Shown here: positions 3,453 to 27,319 of the stretch, in pieces
Position numbering within the stretch: the first letter of the stretch is position 1
Layout: every line of letters starts with the position of its first letter
IMG/VR virus record: IMGVR_UViG_3300021197_000569
Coordinates: 1-27,356 of that record
Reading direction: 5' to 3' (one strand)
Source of the DNA: a virus
Length of the DNA stretch: 27,356 nucleotides
The notes under the pieces: generated by a model
The model's database searches: none
Told to the model about the DNA's origin: nothing
What the model saw: the letters and a program-made list of their open reading frames with translations, nothing else
Program-made: the position numbers and the translations under genes

Positions 3453-4976
3453 ATGGCGGAACTTTTCGGTTTCAGAATTACAAGAGCGAATCAAGGTGGG
3501 GGAAGTGATAGTTTCACTTCTCCTGTCTCTGATGACGGCACCCTCGACATTGTATCGGGTGGTGGTCATTACGCTTCTGTCCTTGATATGGATGGAAGAG
3601 ACCGTAATGAAGTTGATTTAATCCGTAGATATCGTGATATTGCACAACAACCAGAGTGTGACAGTGCTATTGAAGATATTGTGAATGAAGCAATTGTAAG
3701 TGATGAACGTGACCAATCTGTATCAATATCACTTGACAGACTAGACGTATCCCAAAACATTAAACAAAAGGTAAGAGATGAGTTCCATGAACTTCTTCAT
3801 CTTTTAGATTTTAATGCAAAAGGACATGACATCTTTAGACGTTGGTATGTTGATGGCAGAATTTATTATCATAAAATTATTGACCCAAAACAACCTCGCA
3901 AGGGAATTAAAGAGGTTCGTTACATTGACCCTCGTAAAATCAAAAAAGCGAGAGAAACACAAAAAGAGGTTAATGATAAAACTGGCATGGAGATGGTCAA
4001 GAAAGTTGACGATTTCTACTTGTACAATGACAAGGGCTGGGAACAAAACGTAGGAACATCAAATGGAGTCAAGATTACATCCGACTCTATTACATACTGT
4101 CCTTCTGGACTTATTGATATGTCCAAGGGTACAGTACTCTCATATCTAAACAAAGCAATCAAACCTGTCAATCAATTGCGTATGATTGAAGATTCGTTAG
4201 TTATCTATCGTATCTCTCGTGCGCCTGAAAGACGTATCTTTTATATTGACGTTGGTAATCTACCAAAGATGAAAGCAGAATCATATCTGAAAGATGTGAT
4301 GAATCGTTATCGAAACAAAATGGTTTACGATGCACGAACTGGTGAAATCAGAGATGATAGAAACCATATGTCTATGTTGGAAGATTTCTGGTTGCCTCGT
4401 AGAGAAGGTGGTAGAGGTACAGAGATTACAACTTTGCCAGGCGGTTCAAACCTTGGTGAAATTGATGACATTACCTACTTCCAGAAAAAATTATTCCGTT
4501 CATTGAATGTACCAGTATCAAGACTTGCAGAGGAAACAGGTTTCCAATTAGGTCGTTCTGATAACATTACAAGAGATGAACTTAAATTCACAAAATTTGT
4601 CCAGAGACTTCGTAAGAAGTTTTCTATTATGTTCTTAGACATGTTGCGTACACAACTTCTACTGAAGGGTGTTATTGCAATGGAAGAATGGGATACATTC
4701 AAAGAGCATATTCAATTTGATTTCTTACAGGATGGACATTTCACAGAACTGAAGAATGCAGAAATTCTTCGGGACAGACTAGATATGCTCGGACAAGTCG
4801 AATCATATGTCGGTCAATACTTCTCTAAGGAATATGTTAAGAAACACATCCTTAGAATGTCTGATGAGGAGATTGAAGAAATTGACAATCAAATCAAAGA
4901 TGAAGAAGGTGGAGATATGACAGGTGATGATGACGGTATGTTCGCACATAATGATCCAAAAAAAGGAGATAAATAA
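3453..4976 (+). CDS. 20: Portal protein gp20
   Basis: The product is 507 residues (T4 gp20 is 524). It forms the dodecameric ring at one capsid vertex that initiates head assembly, docks terminase and passes DNA. Visible family features include the early DIAQQPECDSAIEDIVNEAIV segment, RYIDPRKIKK, the ISRAPERRIFYIDVGNLPK segment and LPGGSNLGEIDDITYFQKKLF, followed by SLNVPVSRLAEETGF. An acidic C-terminal tail (EEIEEIDNQ and beyond) is present. The ribosome-binding site is TAGGAG about ten bases before ATG 3453. The stop codon TAA shares its last base with the start of the next gene (TAATG). Confidence 0.96.
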   Translation: MAELFGFRITRANQGGGSDSFTSPVSDDGTLDIVSGGGHYASVLDMDGRDRNEVDLIRRYRDIAQQPECDSAIEDIVNEAIVSDERDQSVSISLDRLDVSQNIKQKVRDEFHELLHLLDFNAKGHDIFRRWYVDGRIYYHKIIDPKQPRKGIKEVRYIDPRKIKKARETQKEVNDKTGMEMVKKVDDFYLYNDKGWEQNVGTSNGVKITSDSITYCPSGLIDMSKGTVLSYLNKAIKPVNQLRMIEDSLVIYRISRAPERRIFYIDVGNLPKMKAESYLKDVMNRYRNKMVYDARTGEIRDDRNHMSMLEDFWLPRREGGRGTEITTLPGGSNLGEIDDITYFQKKLFRSLNVPVSRLAEETGFQLGRSDNITRDELKFTKFVQRLRKKFSIMFLDMLRTQLLLKGVIAMEEWDTFKEHIQFDFLQDGHFTELKNAEILRDRLDMLGQVESYVGQYFSKEYVKKHILRMSDEEIEEIDNQIKDEEGGDMTGDDDGMFAHNDPKKGDK

Positions 4977-5161
4977 TGGATAATGTAAAAGACTTTGTAA
5001 GTTCAATTGCATCAGGCGATAACCTTGCGGCGGAGACACACTTTAATAATGCTCTTGCGAAAAAGGTTGGAAGTGCATTAGAAACAAAAAGACAAGAAGT
5101 GGCACAAACTTTTGTGACACATCACATTTCAGACTCAGAGGTAGAAAAAGATAGTGAGTAA
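4976..5161 (+). CDS. Small prohead core protein, gp67-like
   Basis: The product is 61 residues and sits between portal and prohead protease, where T4 carries gp67 (a small core protein). The segment ALETKRQEVAQTFV matches the short helical motif I associate with prohead core proteins of marine T4-like phages. The tail is acidic. The start ATG overlaps the gp20 stop (TAATG) and its 3' end overlaps the next gene by eight bases, showing translational coupling. No signal or membrane segment is visible. Assignment to gp67 is by position and the short motif, not by strong similarity. Confidence 0.6.
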   Translation: MDNVKDFVSSIASGDNLAAETHFNNALAKKVGSALETKRQEVAQTFVTHHISDSEVEKDSE

Positions 5162-5402
5162 AACTCTTTCACAGTTCAAACAAGAACTACCAGAGAAAGA
5201 TGAGCATAAGAAGTCGAGGGAGTATCAAAAGTTATCTCCAGCGATGAAGAAGGCTATTGACGCTATATTCAAGGAAATGGATGCGAAACCTAACAATTTC
5301 CTAAATACTTTTGAAAAAACAATAAATAGTGTTTCCAAGAAGTTCAAAGTTCCGCATAAGGCACTTATGGACTATTTTGAAAAAGAAATGCTTACAATTT
5401 AG
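5154..5402 (+). CDS. Putative prohead core protein in the gp68 slot
   Basis: The product is 82 residues, lysine- and glutamate-rich, predicted mostly helical. It starts with GTG at 5154, inside the end of the preceding gene. No ATG lies nearby in the same frame, so the GTG is the best start. In T4 the second gene after portal is gp68, a prohead core component. The N-terminus (SKTLSQFKQELPEKDE) resembles the T4 internal-protein capsid-targeting peptide in layout, with an aromatic-x-x-E pattern, but lacks the I/L two places before the glutamate that gp21 prefers. I do not recognise a domain. Function is inferred from position. Confidence 0.55.
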   Translation: MSKTLSQFKQELPEKDEHKKSREYQKLSPAMKKAIDAIFKEMDAKPNNFLNTFEKTINSVSKKFKVPHKALMDYFEKEMLTI

Positions 5403-5414
5403 GGATAGAGTAAA

Positions 5415-5663
5415 ATGAAGATAATCGGAGCAGAAGAAGCACTTGCAACTGGTACTACCAAGGGCAAAACCGCTACTGCACACTATGTGTTTAATAACGG
5501 TTCAAAGCAGGCAGTTACAATTAGAAACGCTGATGATGATGGCGATACTGGTTCAGTAAGAATTAACGCAAACGCTGGAGTAATTATCCATACTGATATT
5601 GGAGTCGGGATGCGTGGTGCAACCTCTCTCTTTATTACTCCTATCGTAGCATCGGGGTTCTAA
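5415..5663 (+). CDS. Conserved small hypothetical protein between portal and prohead protease
   Basis: The product is 82 residues with alternating hydrophobic and Thr/Gly/Asn-rich stretches (TATAHYVFNNGSKQAVTIRN, later GVGMRGATSLFITPIVASGF). This suggests an all-beta fold, unlike its helical neighbours. It is co-transcribed with gp21, which begins two bases after its stop. I recall similar small proteins at this place in marine T4-like phages but know no function. A minor capsid or decoration role would fit the location but is a guess. The upstream AGGGATAG provides a modest ribosome-binding site. Confidence 0.6.
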   Translation: MKIIGAEEALATGTTKGKTATAHYVFNNGSKQAVTIRNADDDGDTGSVRINANAGVIIHTDIGVGMRGATSLFITPIVASGF

Positions 5664-5664
5664 T

Positions 5665-6312
5665 ATGAAACTAATAGCAGAACAGATACAAGAAGTAGAA
5701 TACATCACCGAAGCCAAAGAGGACGGTGAAAAGGAAATGAAGATTCGTGGAATCTTTATGCAGGCAGACATGAAAAACCGTAATGGTCGTGTCTACCCAA
5801 TGGGTGTACTTCAAAAAGAAGTCACTCGTTATAACAAAGAATTTGTTGCTGAAGGTCGTGCGTTTGGGGAACTGGGTCATCCAGAAGGCCCCACTGTCAA
5901 TCTTGACAGGGTATCGCATATGATTACAAAACTGGAAGCTGATGGAAAGAACTTTATTGGTGAGGCGAAACTGCTCTCTACTCCAATGGGGGAAATAGCG
6001 AAAGCACTAATCAAAGATGGTGGTAAACTTGGTGTCTCTTCAAGAGGCATGGGTTCTATCGAATCTAAGAGTGGTGCTAATTATGTGAAAGACGATTTTT
6101 ATCTTGCCACTGCGGCAGATATTGTTGCAGACCCATCTGCACCTCAAGCCTTTGTTGAAGGGATTATGGAAGGTAAAGAATGGATTTGGAACAACGGAAT
6201 ACTCAAAGAAGTTGAGATTGCCGAACTCCATGATGAAATCAATGAGTCTGTAAGACGTAAACAAACTAATGTTTCCGCACTTGCATTCGCAAAATTTCTG
6301 TCTAAACTTTAA
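5665..6312 (+). CDS. 21: Prohead core scaffold protease gp21
   Basis: The product is 215 residues (T4 gp21 is 212). This serine protease sits in the prohead core and, after assembly, cleaves scaffold, capsid and internal proteins. Visible family features are GELGHPEGPTVNL with the presumed catalytic histidine 72, GVSSRGMG with the nucleophile among serines 125-126, and the conserved DIVADPSAPQAF at 152-163. The N-terminus contains YITE followed by A at residues 13-17, which matches the cleavage preference of T4 gp21 (I/L-x-E) and may be a self-processing site. The same pattern appears in gp23 (FLSE/A) and in the ATP-grasp protein at 21175 (FITE/E). Confidence 0.95.
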   Translation: MKLIAEQIQEVEYITEAKEDGEKEMKIRGIFMQADMKNRNGRVYPMGVLQKEVTRYNKEFVAEGRAFGELGHPEGPTVNLDRVSHMITKLEADGKNFIGEAKLLSTPMGEIAKALIKDGGKLGVSSRGMGSIESKSGANYVKDDFYLATAADIVADPSAPQAFVEGIMEGKEWIWNNGILKEVEIAELHDEINESVRRKQTNVSALAFAKFLSKL

Positions 6313-6316
6313 TCAT

Positions 6317-6324
6317 TATAAATA
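6317..6324 (+). promoter_or_regulatory. T4-type late promoter box before gp22
   Basis: Exact TATAAATA five bases after the gp21 stop and 32 bases before the gp22 ATG at 6356. Gives the scaffold gene its own late transcript. Confidence 0.82.
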
Positions 6325-6355
6325 TGTTAATAAAACAACCAAGGAGAAAATCCCA

Positions 6356-7534
6356 ATGTCAGAACTAGACAAGACAATTGAGGAACTAGAGGCGGAAGTC
6401 AGTGCAGAGCTTGAAGAAGCAAAAGCACCTGGCGCAACTGCTGGTAAAGGTGACTCAATGGAAAAACAAGAAGGCGATGTTGAAGATTTGGGTAAACCTG
6501 TCGTTGATCCAGAATCAAAAGACAGTGCTGGAAAGAAGGCTTCTGCTAAAGTAAAAAAAGCAGCAGAACCTAAAGCCGGTGCAACCAAAGAAGAAACTGA
6601 AGCTTCAGACGATTCTGAAACAGAATCACTAGAAGAAGGTAAGATGACAAAAGCGGAAATGTTGAAAGCAATGTACTCTGAAATGGAGAACATGAAAGCT
6701 GGAGACCTTAAAGCGTCTTACGACAAAATGATGGCAAAAGAAGAGGAAGAAAAAGAAGAAGAGTCTGCGAAAGTTGACGAATCTACTTTGGAAGACCGTC
6801 TTGCGTCAGTTGATGTATCAGAAGATGTTTCTGCACTAGTTAATGGTGAAGAAATTTCTGAAGAATTTAAGGAAAAAGCATCTACAATTTTTGAAGCAGC
6901 TGTAAAATCAAAACTTCGTTCAGAAGTTGAGAGAATTGAATCTGCAAAGGTTCAAGAAGTTGCTGAAGAAGTAAACAAAGTCCAAAGTGAGTTGACTGAA
7001 AAAGTTGACGCATACATGGGTTATGTTGTTGAAGAGTGGATGAAAGAGAACGAAATTGCAATTGAACGTGGTCTCAAAGGCGAGATTGCAGAAGATTTCA
7101 TTTCTGGACTTAAATCACTTTTCGAGGAGCATTACATTGATGTTCCAGATGAAAAGTATGACATCTTAGGAAGTCAGTCTGAAAAGATTGATGGACTAGA
7201 AGCCAAACTCAATGAGCAAATCGAGAAGTCTGCTGAACTAAAGAAGCAGAACAATCTATTGGTTCGTGAGTCTGTTTTTGCAGAGGTTTCTTCAGATTTG
7301 GCTGACACCGAAGCTGAAAAATTCAAATCTCTTGCAGAAGATGTAGATTTTACTGATGAAGATTCTTTCAGAAGTAAACTCGACACGCTCAAGGAAAGCT
7401 ATTTCCCGAAAGCAACAACTGTCGCTGAATCTGTAGATTCCGAATCTGAAAGTTCAGAATCTTACGATACAACTGGTGCTATGAGTGCTTATATGAGTGC
7501 AATTAGTAAAAATGTAAAGCGAGGTAAGGTTTAA
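6356..7534 (+). CDS. 22: Prohead core scaffold protein gp22
   Basis: The product is about 392 residues, very rich in Glu, Lys, Ala and Ser, with long predicted helical and coiled-coil stretches, as expected for the major scaffold that shapes the prohead and is then degraded by gp21. It is longer than T4 gp22 (269). The extra length is mostly an acidic N-terminal low-complexity region (about residues 10-140). The C-terminal region around EEHYIDVPDEKYDI and SAYMSAISKNVKRGKV resembles the gp22 end. An upstream in-frame start at 6269 would lie before the late promoter and inside gp21. The ATG at 6356 follows AAGGAG and is preferred. gp23 follows. Confidence 0.92.
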   Translation: MSELDKTIEELEAEVSAELEEAKAPGATAGKGDSMEKQEGDVEDLGKPVVDPESKDSAGKKASAKVKKAAEPKAGATKEETEASDDSETESLEEGKMTKAEMLKAMYSEMENMKAGDLKASYDKMMAKEEEEKEEESAKVDESTLEDRLASVDVSEDVSALVNGEEISEEFKEKASTIFEAAVKSKLRSEVERIESAKVQEVAEEVNKVQSELTEKVDAYMGYVVEEWMKENEIAIERGLKGEIAEDFISGLKSLFEEHYIDVPDEKYDILGSQSEKIDGLEAKLNEQIEKSAELKKQNNLLVRESVFAEVSSDLADTEAEKFKSLAEDVDFTDEDSFRSKLDTLKESYFPKATTVAESVDSESESSESYDTTGAMSAYMSAISKNVKRGKV

Positions 7535-7570
7535 GCTGCGGAAGATTTTATCTTTCAAAAATTAAATTCT

Positions 7571-20386: not shown

Positions 20387-20772
20387 GCTATGAACTTAAA
20401 CACTATCTCAAATCCATAAACGAAACAAAGGAACATCTGTTAGATTCAGATGACCCTATGTGGGAAAAGAAGTATTCCCCCTACATTATCAACAAATGTC
20501 TTGCACCATTCAATGACACTATTATGTTAGTGAATGAGATGAATATGAGACACCACCTTGATTCAAAACTACAATATGACTTTTTACTAAATACTATTAG
20601 GTCTAAGAAACGATATGCTCCTTGGGTAAAAGCGAGTAAGTTGAAAGATTTAGAGTATGTAAAAGAGTATTATGGTTATAGTAATGAGAAGGCAAAGGCT
20701 GCTCTGATGATACTTGATAATGAACAAATTAATACTATAAAAAGTAGTTTGAATAAAGGTGGAAGAAAATGA
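20383..20772 (+). CDS. 62: Clamp loader small subunit gp62
   Basis: The product is 129 residues, clearly shorter than T4 gp62 (187). It is the single non-ATPase subunit of the clamp loader. Assignment rests on position between gp44 and regA with ATGA overlaps at both ends, and on the N-terminal helical layout (SYELKHYLKSINETKEHL and the conserved YSPYIINKCLAPF segment). Most of the missing length appears to be at the C-terminal end. No frameshift or stop disruption is seen. Confidence 0.88.
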   Translation: MSYELKHYLKSINETKEHLLDSDDPMWEKKYSPYIINKCLAPFNDTIMLVNEMNMRHHLDSKLQYDFLLNTIRSKKRYAPWVKASKLKDLEYVKEYYGYSNEKAKAALMILDNEQINTIKSSLNKGGRK

Positions 20773-21174: not shown

Positions 21175-22224
21175 TTGACACAAAAATTCTCACAATTCAT
21201 CACTGAAGAACCAAAAGAGCAGAAGTATAAACTTGTAATCTTTCATAACTCTCACGAAAACTTGAGAGATGTAGGTAAACAAGATAGGCCTGATGTTAAG
21301 TTGATGAATGATGCCACAAAGAAACTTGGTATTAATCTATTTAATGCTGAATATTCTGGTAGTTTTATCGAAGAGAAAAATGGAAAGTTTTATGTCAACT
21401 CTTTCGCATTCGATGAAACAGGTAAGGCAGTAAAACCAAGTGAGGATGGTAAAACAGAATATCAAAAACCATTTGAGATTAGTCCAGAAGATACATTAAT
21501 TTTCCCTAGAGGATTAGGTACTCTTGGATTTACTACCAATAGACGTTGGGTAGATATGATTAGACTCTTAGAAGATGCTGGATTTAAAACAATACCATCT
21601 TTAGAGACATGGGATATCTGCACAAGTAAATATTATTGCAATGAGTTGTTTAGGAAAAATGGATTAAATACTCCAACAACTGTTCCTATAACATATTCAG
21701 ATGACACAGAACGAGCAATCGAAGGAATGAAGTTTCCGATAATACTTAAAGCATCCAGTGGTTCACAAACTGGTGTTGGAGTTGTTATTGTAGAGAGTAT
21801 GCGTTCACTACATCCAACAGTACAAATGTTATCACTGTTGAGTAAGAACATTGACCTTGTTGCTCAAGAATATATTAAAGTTGATTATGATGTTAGAGTT
21901 ATTGTACTTAACGGTGAAATAATCGCATCAATGAAACGACTAGTAATTGATGGTGATGCAAGAAGTAATGCGTCATTAGGTGCAGAGACAGAAGAGATAG
22001 AACTGACTGAAATTGAAAAGTCAGATTCAATCAAAGCTGCAAAACTCTGTAAAGGAGATTTGGTTGGTGTAGACTTTCTTCCCTCTAAAAATAGAGAGAA
22101 GGAACAACCATATATACTGGAAATAAACAGTATGCCAGGGTTTGGCGGAATTGAAAGGTCTACTAAAGGTAAGAGTGTTACTCAAGAAATATTGAAAACA
22201 TTCTTATATCGAAACAATTGGTAA
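21175..22224 (+). CDS. ATP-grasp ligase, RimK-like, with capsid-targeting-like N-terminus
   Basis: The product is 349 residues. ATP-grasp enzymes join a carboxylate to an amine using ATP; RimK adds glutamates to ribosomal protein S6. Visible features: FPIILKASSGSQTGVGVV (187-203) with ATP-binding K192 and the glycine loop, the DYDVRVIVLNGEIIASMKR strand pair (237-255) and GVDFLP plus YILEINSMPGFGGIE (298-327) with metal ligands near D300, E316 and N318. The start is TTG 21175; no ATG or GTG lies near. Residues 4-11 (KFSQFITE) resemble the T4 internal-protein capsid-targeting peptide MKTYQEFIAE and end in a gp21-type cleavage site. Substrate unknown. It sits between regA and gp43, two bases after regA. 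Confidence 0.85.
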   Translation: MTQKFSQFITEEPKEQKYKLVIFHNSHENLRDVGKQDRPDVKLMNDATKKLGINLFNAEYSGSFIEEKNGKFYVNSFAFDETGKAVKPSEDGKTEYQKPFEISPEDTLIFPRGLGTLGFTTNRRWVDMIRLLEDAGFKTIPSLETWDICTSKYYCNELFRKNGLNTPTTVPITYSDDTERAIEGMKFPIILKASSGSQTGVGVVIVESMRSLHPTVQMLSLLSKNIDLVAQEYIKVDYDVRVIVLNGEIIASMKRLVIDGDARSNASLGAETEEIELTEIEKSDSIKAAKLCKGDLVGVDFLPSKNREKEQPYILEINSMPGFGGIERSTKGKSVTQEILKTFLYRNNW

Positions 22225-25044: not shown

Positions 25045-25073
25045 TTGACATTTGTTGGCAAAACAAGTATAAT
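25045..25073 (+). promoter_or_regulatory. Sigma70-type promoter for the methyltransferase, with spacer palindrome
   Basis: TTGACA, 17-base spacer, TATAAT. The spacer reads TT, then TGTT-GGCAA-AACA, then AG; extended half-sites TTGTT/AACAA are perfect. Drives the methyltransferase and TET-like pair. Confidence 0.85.
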
Positions 25074-25102: not shown

Positions 25103-26320
25103 ATGAAATATTTTAGATATACACTAGATGAAATGAAACAGTCATCTGACAGGAAACTATTCGATTACATATCGTTCTTTGCAGGCGGTGGTGGTTCATC
25201 TGCTGGTTATAAACTTGCAGGCGGTGATTGTAAATTTGTCAATGAGTTTCAACAAGTCGCAGTGGATACCTATCTAGAGAATTGGCCAGAGACACCAGCA
25301 CACATATGTGGTGATATCAAAGAAGTCACTGGTGCAAAGATTATGGAGATGACAGGAATTAAAAAGGGAGAACTTGATATACTTGATGGTTCACCACCTT
25401 GTCCACCATTCTCAATGTCTGGTACAAAACAAAAAGGTTGGGGTAAAGAAAAGACTGCCTATGGAATGAAACAAAAGAACATTGAAGATTTAACATGGGA
25501 ACAGATTCGTATTGCTGGTGAGATGATGCCAAAAATAATTATCTGTGAGAATGTAAAAGGTCTTACAATGGAATATGCAAGAGAACATTTGATGCGAATG
25601 GTAAATGATTTCGAGGCATTAGGTTATACAACAGTTTACAAAGTACTAAAGGGACACAATCATGGTGTACCTCAGAAAAGAGAAAGAGTTTTTATCGTAT
25701 CGGTAAGGAACGATGTACTGGACAAAATCGGAGTACCATTTATGATACTTGAAAGTTTGATTTTTCCAGAACCAGAAGACCATGTCACTACAATTAAAGA
25801 TGCAATTTGGGACATTCAACAAAACAACGAGAATGCTTTTGAAGCAGTTGAACTTTGTGAGTCGATGACCAAGAGCGCTAAATATAAGTGGATGAAGAGA
25901 CTACCAAAGAATCCAGAAAAGGTTGTCTCTGTTGGTGATGATGTAGTTGGGCCTTGGTATGATAAAGTCATTGAACACAGAAAGAAATGGGGTAAGAGTA
26001 TTCCAGATAGAAAGAGTTCGTTCTTTCAATCTCGTAGAGTTCCTTGGAATCAAGCATCTCATACACTTTCTGAACAAGGACTACAAACAAGTCTTGCAGT
26101 TCACTTGCACCCAGAAGAAGATAGGGTGTACACAACTAAAGAAGCTGCACGACTAATGACTTTGCCAGAGGATTATAAATTCACTGGTACTCTTAACGAG
26201 AAACTTGCAAGAATTGGGTTGATGGTTGCACCACTACAAATGAAGTACCTTGCTGATAAAGTGTACGAAAACATCCTTAAACCCTATAAGGAGATACAAA
26301 ATGCAGAAACTAACGGTTAA
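25103..26320 (+). CDS. DNA (cytosine-5) methyltransferase
   Basis: The product is 405 residues. It transfers a methyl group from S-adenosylmethionine to carbon 5 of cytosine. Motif I FFAGGGGSSAGYKLAG (25-40, cofactor binding), motif IV GSPPCPPFS (96-104) with catalytic C100, motif VI ENVKG (near 155), motif VIII QKRERVFIV (near 192-200), a target-recognition stretch (about 215-310) and a motif X-like end (ARIGLMVAPLQMKYLADKVYENIL; family N-G/V-x-P-P varies to LMVAP). No restriction enzyme lies beside it. It is followed by, and overlaps, a TET/JBP-like oxygenase, suggesting the 5-methylcytosine is a substrate for oxidation. Target sequence cannot be read from the gene. Confidence 0.95.
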   Translation: MKYFRYTLDEMKQSSDRKLFDYISFFAGGGGSSAGYKLAGGDCKFVNEFQQVAVDTYLENWPETPAHICGDIKEVTGAKIMEMTGIKKGELDILDGSPPCPPFSMSGTKQKGWGKEKTAYGMKQKNIEDLTWEQIRIAGEMMPKIIICENVKGLTMEYAREHLMRMVNDFEALGYTTVYKVLKGHNHGVPQKRERVFIVSVRNDVLDKIGVPFMILESLIFPEPEDHVTTIKDAIWDIQQNNENAFEAVELCESMTKSAKYKWMKRLPKNPEKVVSVGDDVVGPWYDKVIEHRKKWGKSIPDRKSSFFQSRRVPWNQASHTLSEQGLQTSLAVHLHPEEDRVYTTKEAARLMTLPEDYKFTGTLNEKLARIGLMVAPLQMKYLADKVYENILKPYKEIQNAETNG

Positions 26321-27287
26321 AAAAGACTTAGGTCAAAAAGAAACTTACGATAAATGGAATGGTAAATTTCTAGACGAATCAGCATACGATGAGGTAATCA
26401 AAGTAACTGATACAGACATGGGAGTAATGAAACCTATCCTATCTTTGGATGGTTCAGATGTTCCCCTTGCATATGTTATTACAAATGCATTCCCTAAAGA
26501 AAGTAAGATTAGGGATATTCTAACTACAATTGAAGATACTTCTACTATGAGAGCAAACTGTTCTGGCCCTATTGATAAGGAAGAGATGCTTGCAAAAGGA
26601 TTAGTTGAAGGACAAGATTATAAACTAAGAACACCTAACTCATATTACACTCGTACAAAGTCTGGTGGTTGGGGTATGATTGCATACTCAAACGAAATTC
26701 ATTCTGTTATGATTGGACATAAACGTGGACGCTTTACTGGTGGTATTGATGTATCGGGTTGGTGTAAAGACAATAAAGAAAAGTGGGAAGCACTACAAGA
26801 AATAACTGAACACAATGAAACTGCATTCTCAAAAGCAAACGATGACATCTATAGAAGTCAGAGGTCTTTTGCAGAAAACAACATTCGTCCAGAACATCGT
26901 ATTGGTGAAGGTATCTTTACTACACTTTCTGCGAATAGATATTCTGCATATCAGTCTGCAAAGATGGCTGCACATGTAGACAGTGGTGACACTGATGCTG
27001 GTATGACAAGTATGTGTGTATTCAGAGAAGGTGATTATGATGGTGCATATCTTTGTTTCCCTCGTTATGGTGTTGCAATTGATGCCCCAGATAATAGTGT
27101 AGTGATTGCAGATAGTCAAGAAGTACATGGTGTTACACCTATCTCTGGTAGTGGACAACGGTTTAGTTGTGTTGCATATTGTGACAGACGATTGGCAACA
27201 GTCGGTGTTTACGGTAAACAAGAAAAACTGATTGGTAAGTACGCTGCAAAAACATCTGGAAATTTAAATGATTTTCTTGGCGAATAA
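26301..27287 (+). CDS. TET/JBP-like 2-oxoglutarate/Fe(II) dioxygenase
   Basis: The product is 328 residues. Residues H225-x-D227 (AAHVDSGD), H276 (SQEVHGVTP) and R287 (GQRFSC) form the expected iron-binding facial triad and the 2-oxoglutarate-binding arginine in the order of the double-stranded beta-helix fold. The segment between (EGDYDGAYLCFPRYGVAIDAP) has the G-x-L-x-F-P-x-x-G-x-x-x pattern of TET/JBP enzymes, which oxidise 5-methylcytosine or thymine. Phage TET enzymes acting on 5-methylcytosine are known. ATG 26301 is chosen because AAGGAG is directly upstream; an earlier in-frame start at 26250 would lie deep in the methyltransferase. It overlaps that gene by 20 bases, implying a coupled pair. 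Confidence 0.85.
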   Translation: MQKLTVKKDLGQKETYDKWNGKFLDESAYDEVIKVTDTDMGVMKPILSLDGSDVPLAYVITNAFPKESKIRDILTTIEDTSTMRANCSGPIDKEEMLAKGLVEGQDYKLRTPNSYYTRTKSGGWGMIAYSNEIHSVMIGHKRGRFTGGIDVSGWCKDNKEKWEALQEITEHNETAFSKANDDIYRSQRSFAENNIRPEHRIGEGIFTTLSANRYSAYQSAKMAAHVDSGDTDAGMTSMCVFREGDYDGAYLCFPRYGVAIDAPDNSVVIADSQEVHGVTPISGSGQRFSCVAYCDRRLATVGVYGKQEKLIGKYAAKTSGNLNDFLGE

Positions 27288-27290
27288 GCC

Positions 27291-27319
27291 TTGACATTTG
27301 TTATAATAACAGGTATACT
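27291..27319 (+). promoter_or_regulatory. Sigma70-type promoter at the right edge, with spacer palindrome
   Basis: TTGACA, 17-base spacer, TATACT. The spacer contains TGTTAT-A-ATAACA, a perfect palindrome. A GGAGAA ribosome-binding site closes the window (27351-27356), so a further early gene starts just past the right edge. Confidence 0.82.

Follow-up and report, generated by a model that had tools for sequence, protein, structure and literature searches.

A C5-cytosine DNA methyltransferase gene (25103-26320, plus strand, 405 aa) and a gene for a TET/JBP-family Fe(II)/2-oxoglutarate dioxygenase (26301-27287, plus strand, 328 aa, ATG at 26301) lie at the right end of the window, a 27,356-base IMG/VR record, and overlap by 20 bases (26301-26320), as the first-pass annotation had stated. 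The window shares about 99.5% identity with Melnitz EXVC044M (MZ577097), a cultured phage of Methylophilales (OM43); the three aligned blocks are 99.5%, 96.0% and 99.8% identical. The products of Melnitz genes 5 and 6 are 100% identical to the window methyltransferase and dioxygenase. The whole Melnitz genome holds one TET and one C5-methyltransferase. GenBank names gene 5 'modification methylase, hhaIM' and gene 6, the TET, 'hypothetical protein'; the main text of the Melnitz paper sees in gene 5 no more than a protective methylase and never uses the word 'dioxygenase' (PMC9004378). Elsewhere in the window, about 173 bases of Melnitz are missing at 20387-20389, inside the small gene 228 between clamp-loader genes, and a RimK-like ATP-grasp gene before the polymerase (21175-22224) shows 38-98% identity across loci whose polymerases are approximately 95% identical, which suggests allele swapping.

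A sigma-70-like promoter of the methyltransferase-TET pair (25045-25073, plus strand, TTGACA-17-TATAAT) agrees with the consensus at 12/12 positions, and another (27291-27319, plus strand, TTGACA-17-TATACT), before the next transcription unit, agrees at 11/12. The annotated promoter ahead of the pair and its counterpart at 27291 thus stand as consensus matches, but the number of such sites across the region (21, versus 18.0 +/- 4.5 expected from shuffles) is not enriched, so that both are called by consensus.

The TET dioxygenase and its pairing with the methyltransferase

The dioxygenase scores 43.0 bits against the Tet_JBP profile of Pfam (PF12851, cut-off 34.9) and 21.1 bits against 2OG-FeII_Oxy_3 (PF13640), under the cut-off of 27; a prolyl-hydroxylase-type 2-oxoglutarate oxygenase is therefore rejected as the reading of the second gene. 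H225, D227, H276 and R287, all present where the first-pass annotation had placed them, are invariant in 23/23 aligned TET sequences, the others sharing 48-96% identity with the window protein; by analogy with the family, the first three would be the iron ligands and R287 the 2-oxoglutarate residue. D230 is likewise invariant (23/23) and sits at what we take to be the spacing of the base-contacting Asp of NgTET1. A PDB sequence search with the TET profile gave no match at E up to 1, so a comparison of folds was needed. With an AlphaFold model built on the TET alignment (pLDDT 77.1, pTM 0.77), the leading Foldseek matches in the PDB are TET2, CMD1, CcTet and NgTET1, and a second structure aligner (VIA) ranks TET2 (Z 19.8; 258 residues, 3.5 A) and NgTET1 (17.4) above the best non-TET chain (14.2). 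The profile search, named beforehand as one that might refute a TET assignment, therefore favours Tet_JBP over the generic 2-oxoglutarate family, and TET structures lead the fold search. Membership of the second gene in the TET/JBP dioxygenases is supported by profile and model, and oxidation of 5-methylcytosine (5mC) is its predicted activity. Many mycobacteriophage records name TET-like genes queuine tRNA-ribosyltransferase or DpdA-like (L077:813-1730); the doubtful database names affected by the assignment of phage TETs are queuine tRNA-ribosyltransferase and SNF2 repair protein.

Among 70 related IMG/VR TET loci, 65 carry a methyltransferase, directly upstream of TET in 63 and beyond the DNA polymerase gene in L055 and L064; the remaining five are contigs that start at or inside TET. 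The two genes overlap in many of these pairs and abut in others, the adjacency persists down to 48% TET identity, and the association exceeds chance. A phage genome collection yielded TET matches in 14 records, namely four full-length Melnitz records and 10 more distant ones, and no C5-methyltransferase was found in any of the five other TET phages searched (Cr30, Serendipitous, P12024L, S-CBWM1 and HTVC112P, with DLP_6 left out). Because such phages exist, TET membership by itself does not fix 5mC as the substrate, and it is the pairing that points to 5mC. In L064, the methyltransferase is followed at 4518-6067 by KdsA-like (DAHP_synth_1, 185 bits) and KdsB-like (CTP_transf_3, 94 bits) genes, whose putative Kdo-type sugar might be destined for DNA or for the surface of the host. 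Among the adjoining genes of L237 (3974-8806), Arg-type CmoX and CmoA are joined by a divergent TET (46.6 bits) and by two genes judged MazG-like and TAGT-like by eye, which places the carboxymethyl and TET routes in one phage.

A Leu-type clade of cytosine methyltransferases

The methyltransferase exceeds the cut-offs of PF00145 (187 bits versus 22) and TIGR00675 (155 bits versus 100.65) and has an SPPC motif with the catalytic Cys100, which, together with its coordinates, bears out the annotation of a complete C5-methyltransferase with a PPC motif at C100. Its nearest solved relative is 8yf3 (phmmer E 6e-76 over most of the length), with HhaI far behind (approximately 4e-18). The structure 8yf3 comes from Synechococcus phage S-B43 and is described as CmoX, a GC-targeting cytosine C5-carboxymethyltransferase whose Arg350 binds the carboxy group and is required for use of carboxy-SAM, whose R350N mutant uses neither cofactor, and which host CmoA can also serve (PMC12783734). 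Because CmoX needs Arg350, the residue at this position was checked: it is Leu373 in the window enzyme, aligned with CmoX Arg350 and HhaI Asn304 and different from both. Judged by the published requirement for Arg350, the window enzyme falls outside CmoX; a carboxymethyltransferase identity is rejected in view of Leu373 and of the lack of CmoA in Melnitz, where neither CmoA (at E 1e-4) nor CmoY had a match in the genome pieces.

The Leu/Arg comparison drew on loci from the TET, kinase and CmoX-side scans and leaves aside the clades between the two groups; the CmoX-side scan kept 80 of at least 560, and some loci cover the same contig twice. Within this set, the Arg350 position is Arg in 80/80 CmoX-side loci, 65 of them with CmoA nearby, and Leu in 99/99 of the methyltransferases that the TET and kinase scans gave, 93 of which are accompanied by TET and none by CmoA, part of this link to TET being by construction because the Leu set was gathered via TET or kinase. 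Pro follows SPPC in every one of the 95 Leu-type sequences, out of 101, that could be read there, at a position that presumably equals Gln82 of HhaI, and the Leu-type enzymes depart from HhaI at both positions that line the transferred group. Transfer of a methyl group from SAM would be the natural reading for the window enzyme, though its Leu is unlike either characterised enzyme, and its target, judged from its relative CmoX, is probably the GC dinucleotide; GC dinucleotides are mildly depleted (observed/expected 0.84-0.95), which is uninformative for or against such a target. The Leu-type clade is one of the two new parts of this finding.

The variable slot downstream of TET and the P-loop kinase

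Past the right edge of the window, Melnitz has gene 7 (427 aa, Melnitz 6269-7552), which starts six bases beyond the edge and behind the promoter at 27291, followed by gene 8, a 177-aa P-loop kinase, and gene 9. Gene 7 has no Pfam or PHROG match and ParB_N has no match in Melnitz; since the model of the gene 7 family is poor (pLDDT 58.5, pTM 0.33) and finds no PDB fold match at E 0.001, its description as ParB-like with a GIY-YIG-like start was made by eye. Other slot proteins have weak ParB-family matches, such as 17.1 bits, under the cut-off, in a 145.9-kb relative. The slot protein of L015 (6249-7604) has an HNH-like end (21.2 bits, just under the cut-off) and, by eye, a ParB/DUF262-like start, a layout described for GmrSD-type nucleases that attack modified DNA (PMC4619093).

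The stretch after TET varies strongly among relatives. A T4-type DNA alpha-glucosyltransferase (AGT) occupies the downstream slot of L041 (224 bits) and also of L052, and TAGT that of several loci, scoring above the cut-off in L024, a cluster representative; both families are named for hydroxymethylated bases. Other slot genes encode glycosyltransferase-like, helicase-like and HNH-bearing proteins and the kinase. The same type of slot gene may be followed by either enzyme: g7-type genes by the kinase in Melnitz and L058 and by TAGT in L024, c9/c14-type genes by the kinase in L003 and by TAGT in L021 and L027, and c23-type genes by the kinase in L015 and by TAGT in L050 and L057; in L059, L061, L131 and others the kinase is the immediate neighbour of TET. 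The suggestion of the first-pass annotation that further modifying genes may lie past the right edge is half right: the next genes in Melnitz encode an unassigned protein and a P-loop kinase, profile searches for AGT and TAGT found neither in its genome, and glycosyltransferases do occur at this place in relatives.

With repeated layouts dropped and a minimum of 1.6 kb required downstream, the 70 TET loci come down to 40; the slot of these held the kinase in 14, a glycosyltransferase in 14, both in 1 (L048), another gene in 4 and none of these in 7 (Fisher p 0.002). This exclusion becomes less marked as the required length rises (p 0.018 for 2.6 kb, 0.044 for 3 kb and 0.15 for 4 kb), and its p values are a guide only because related loci are not independent.

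The kinase appears distantly related to PF18751 (Ploopntkinase3, cut-off 27 bits), against which Melnitz gene 8 scores 20.7 bits and its homologue in the 145.9-kb relative 31.9 bits; a PDB search with the kinase profile gave weak matches only. In mycobacteriophage Serendipitous, the gene flanked by TET and the large terminase encodes a protein that scores 214 bits against PF18751, and in Caulobacter phage Cr30 such a kinase is found roughly 7 kb from TET. A scan for the kinase found 168 loci, of which 80 were kept, and the 39 of these with at least 3.2 kb upstream comprise 29 with TET and methyltransferase, 5 with methyltransferase only and 5 with neither. Whole-contig searches of the 10/39 loci without a nearby TET found none, and mycobacteriophage Zenteno07 has a PF18751 kinase with no TET and no C5-methyltransferase; both observations weaken a strict link between kinase and TET. 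In the five kinase loci with neither gene, the slot gene, which looks ParB-like by eye in several, directly precedes the kinase. In L099 (3618-6534) and L116 (3457-6537), whose contigs have no TET, a slot gene separates the Leu-type methyltransferase from the kinase downstream. The names terminase small subunit and adenylate kinase are given to the PF18751 kinase in many mycobacteriophage records (L077:3088-3654), the former being the doubtful database name affected here.

Because the slot holds the kinase or glycosyltransferases and almost never both, the kinase may tailor 5-hydroxymethylcytosine (5hmC). A kinase acting on 5hmdU in DNA, from thymidine-hypermodified phages, is known, and the phosphate that it adds to the hydroxymethyl group is described as blocking restriction enzymes (PMC7653180). 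The likeness drawn here is one of function, and the base would be cytosine. By this analogy, it is possible, though we consider it rather doubtful, that Melnitz-type phages phosphorylate 5hmC in DNA instead of glycosylating it; the protective mark would then be phosphomethylcytosine, which is charged, or an activated intermediate, and the variable ParB-like-looking gene would supply a DNA-binding or discriminating partner. Among the papers listed by a literature search, none is recognisable from its title or the opening of its abstract as a report of a 5hmC kinase.

Predicted cytosine hydroxymethylation at the DNA level

The observed identities, order, conservation and fold of the two genes are best read, with a probability of about 0.8, as a post-replicative cytosine hydroxymethylation module that converts 5mC to 5hmC at the level of DNA. 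For the reactions themselves we infer that the methyltransferase would act after DNA synthesis, methylating cytosine at C5 with the GC dinucleotide as its probable target, and that TET, from the overlapping next gene, would oxidise the product to 5hmC, whose hydroxymethyl group would then be a handle for tailoring enzymes of the downstream slot. Many relatives would use glycosyltransferases for this step; in Melnitz and the window phage it may fall to the P-loop kinase encoded two genes further on. The modified cytosine may protect the phage from host restriction. Phage TETs are described as oxidising 5mC made by phage methyltransferases (PMC11404850, PMC12730594). The DNA-level route is the best reading because Melnitz lacks a thymidylate-synthase-type gene: PF00303 has no match in the complete genome, whereas 9/14 control genomes were matched. 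A T4-style dCMP hydroxymethylase route looks absent and is rejected on this ground, in keeping with the route distinct from the nucleotide-level one of T4 that had been proposed from the first reading.

Three other explanations would divide the two genes or change their chemistry. The first enzyme might transfer a non-methyl group, as CmoX does carboxymethyl, with TET oxidising that group or acting elsewhere; its much closer match to CmoX than to HhaI and the Leu and Pro that both set it apart from HhaI fit this idea, but the uniform replacement of Arg350 by Leu on the TET and kinase side, and the confinement of CmoA to the neighbourhood of Arg-type enzymes, with no CmoA or CmoY match in Melnitz, make it improbable. 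Slightly less probable again is a JBP-like action of TET on thymine that would produce hydroxymethyluracil while the methyltransferase works apart. The five TET phages with no C5-methyltransferase would suit such a substrate, as would a mycobacteriophage record that names its TET thymidine hydroxylase, yet they are set against the family-wide and often overlapping adjacency of a C5-methyltransferase and the invariance of D230, which would match the base-contacting Asp of NgTET1 in spacing.

Very little credence is left for an orphan methyltransferase serving restriction evasion with an unrelated oxygenase, such as a protein hydroxylase, behind it. The protective methylase proposed in the Melnitz paper is of this kind, and the Melnitz genome has other 2-oxoglutarate oxygenases of PF13640 type, but the second gene itself falls on the Tet_JBP side of both cut-offs and its fold leads to TET structures.

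Hydroxymethylation of cytosine by a methyltransferase and TET, the preferred reading, can be set beside several characterised systems. Clusters for TET-based C5-cytosine hypermodification in phages were reportedly described by Burke et al. (PNAS 2021). They resemble the window locus in the C5-methyltransferase beside a Tet_JBP dioxygenase and in the AGT or TAGT that follow in its relatives, and differ in that Melnitz has a ParB-like-looking gene (by eye) and a P-loop kinase instead. Pathways of methyltransferase, TET and glycosyltransferase are already in print (PMC12730594, PMC11404850, citing Burke et al. 2021), so the make-up of Melnitz (Leu-type methyltransferase, TET and kinase, lacking both AGT and TAGT) represents a variant; the pairing is of a kind already known in phages, and the kinase variant is new. 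The CmoX/CmoA/CmoY system of S-B43 shares a homologous cytosine enzyme with the same SPPC motif, both phages belong to the Kyanoviridae, and ParBc-domain neighbours are reported there (PMC12783734), whereas the window and Melnitz have Leu for Arg350 and TET in place of CmoA and CmoY. Like T4, with its dCMP hydroxymethylase and glucosyltransferases, this T4-like phage is predicted to contain 5hmC, and two relatives have the T4-type AGT, but the thymidylate-synthase-type hydroxymethylase is missing from Melnitz and the modification is predicted on DNA, not on the nucleotide.

Two sister groups of phage cytosine enzymes differ at a single residue of the cofactor pocket, Arg with CmoA and Leu with TET, which is usable as an annotation rule. 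A kinase in the place of the glycosyltransferases would be a new way of finishing a hydroxymethylated base, and if this is its role, the kinase and the 5hmC glycosyltransferases are interchangeable tailoring parts of one phage system. A marine phage of the OM43 clade encodes a predicted TET route to modified cytosine that is missing from its annotation, and because this phage is cultured, the chemistry of its DNA is directly measurable.
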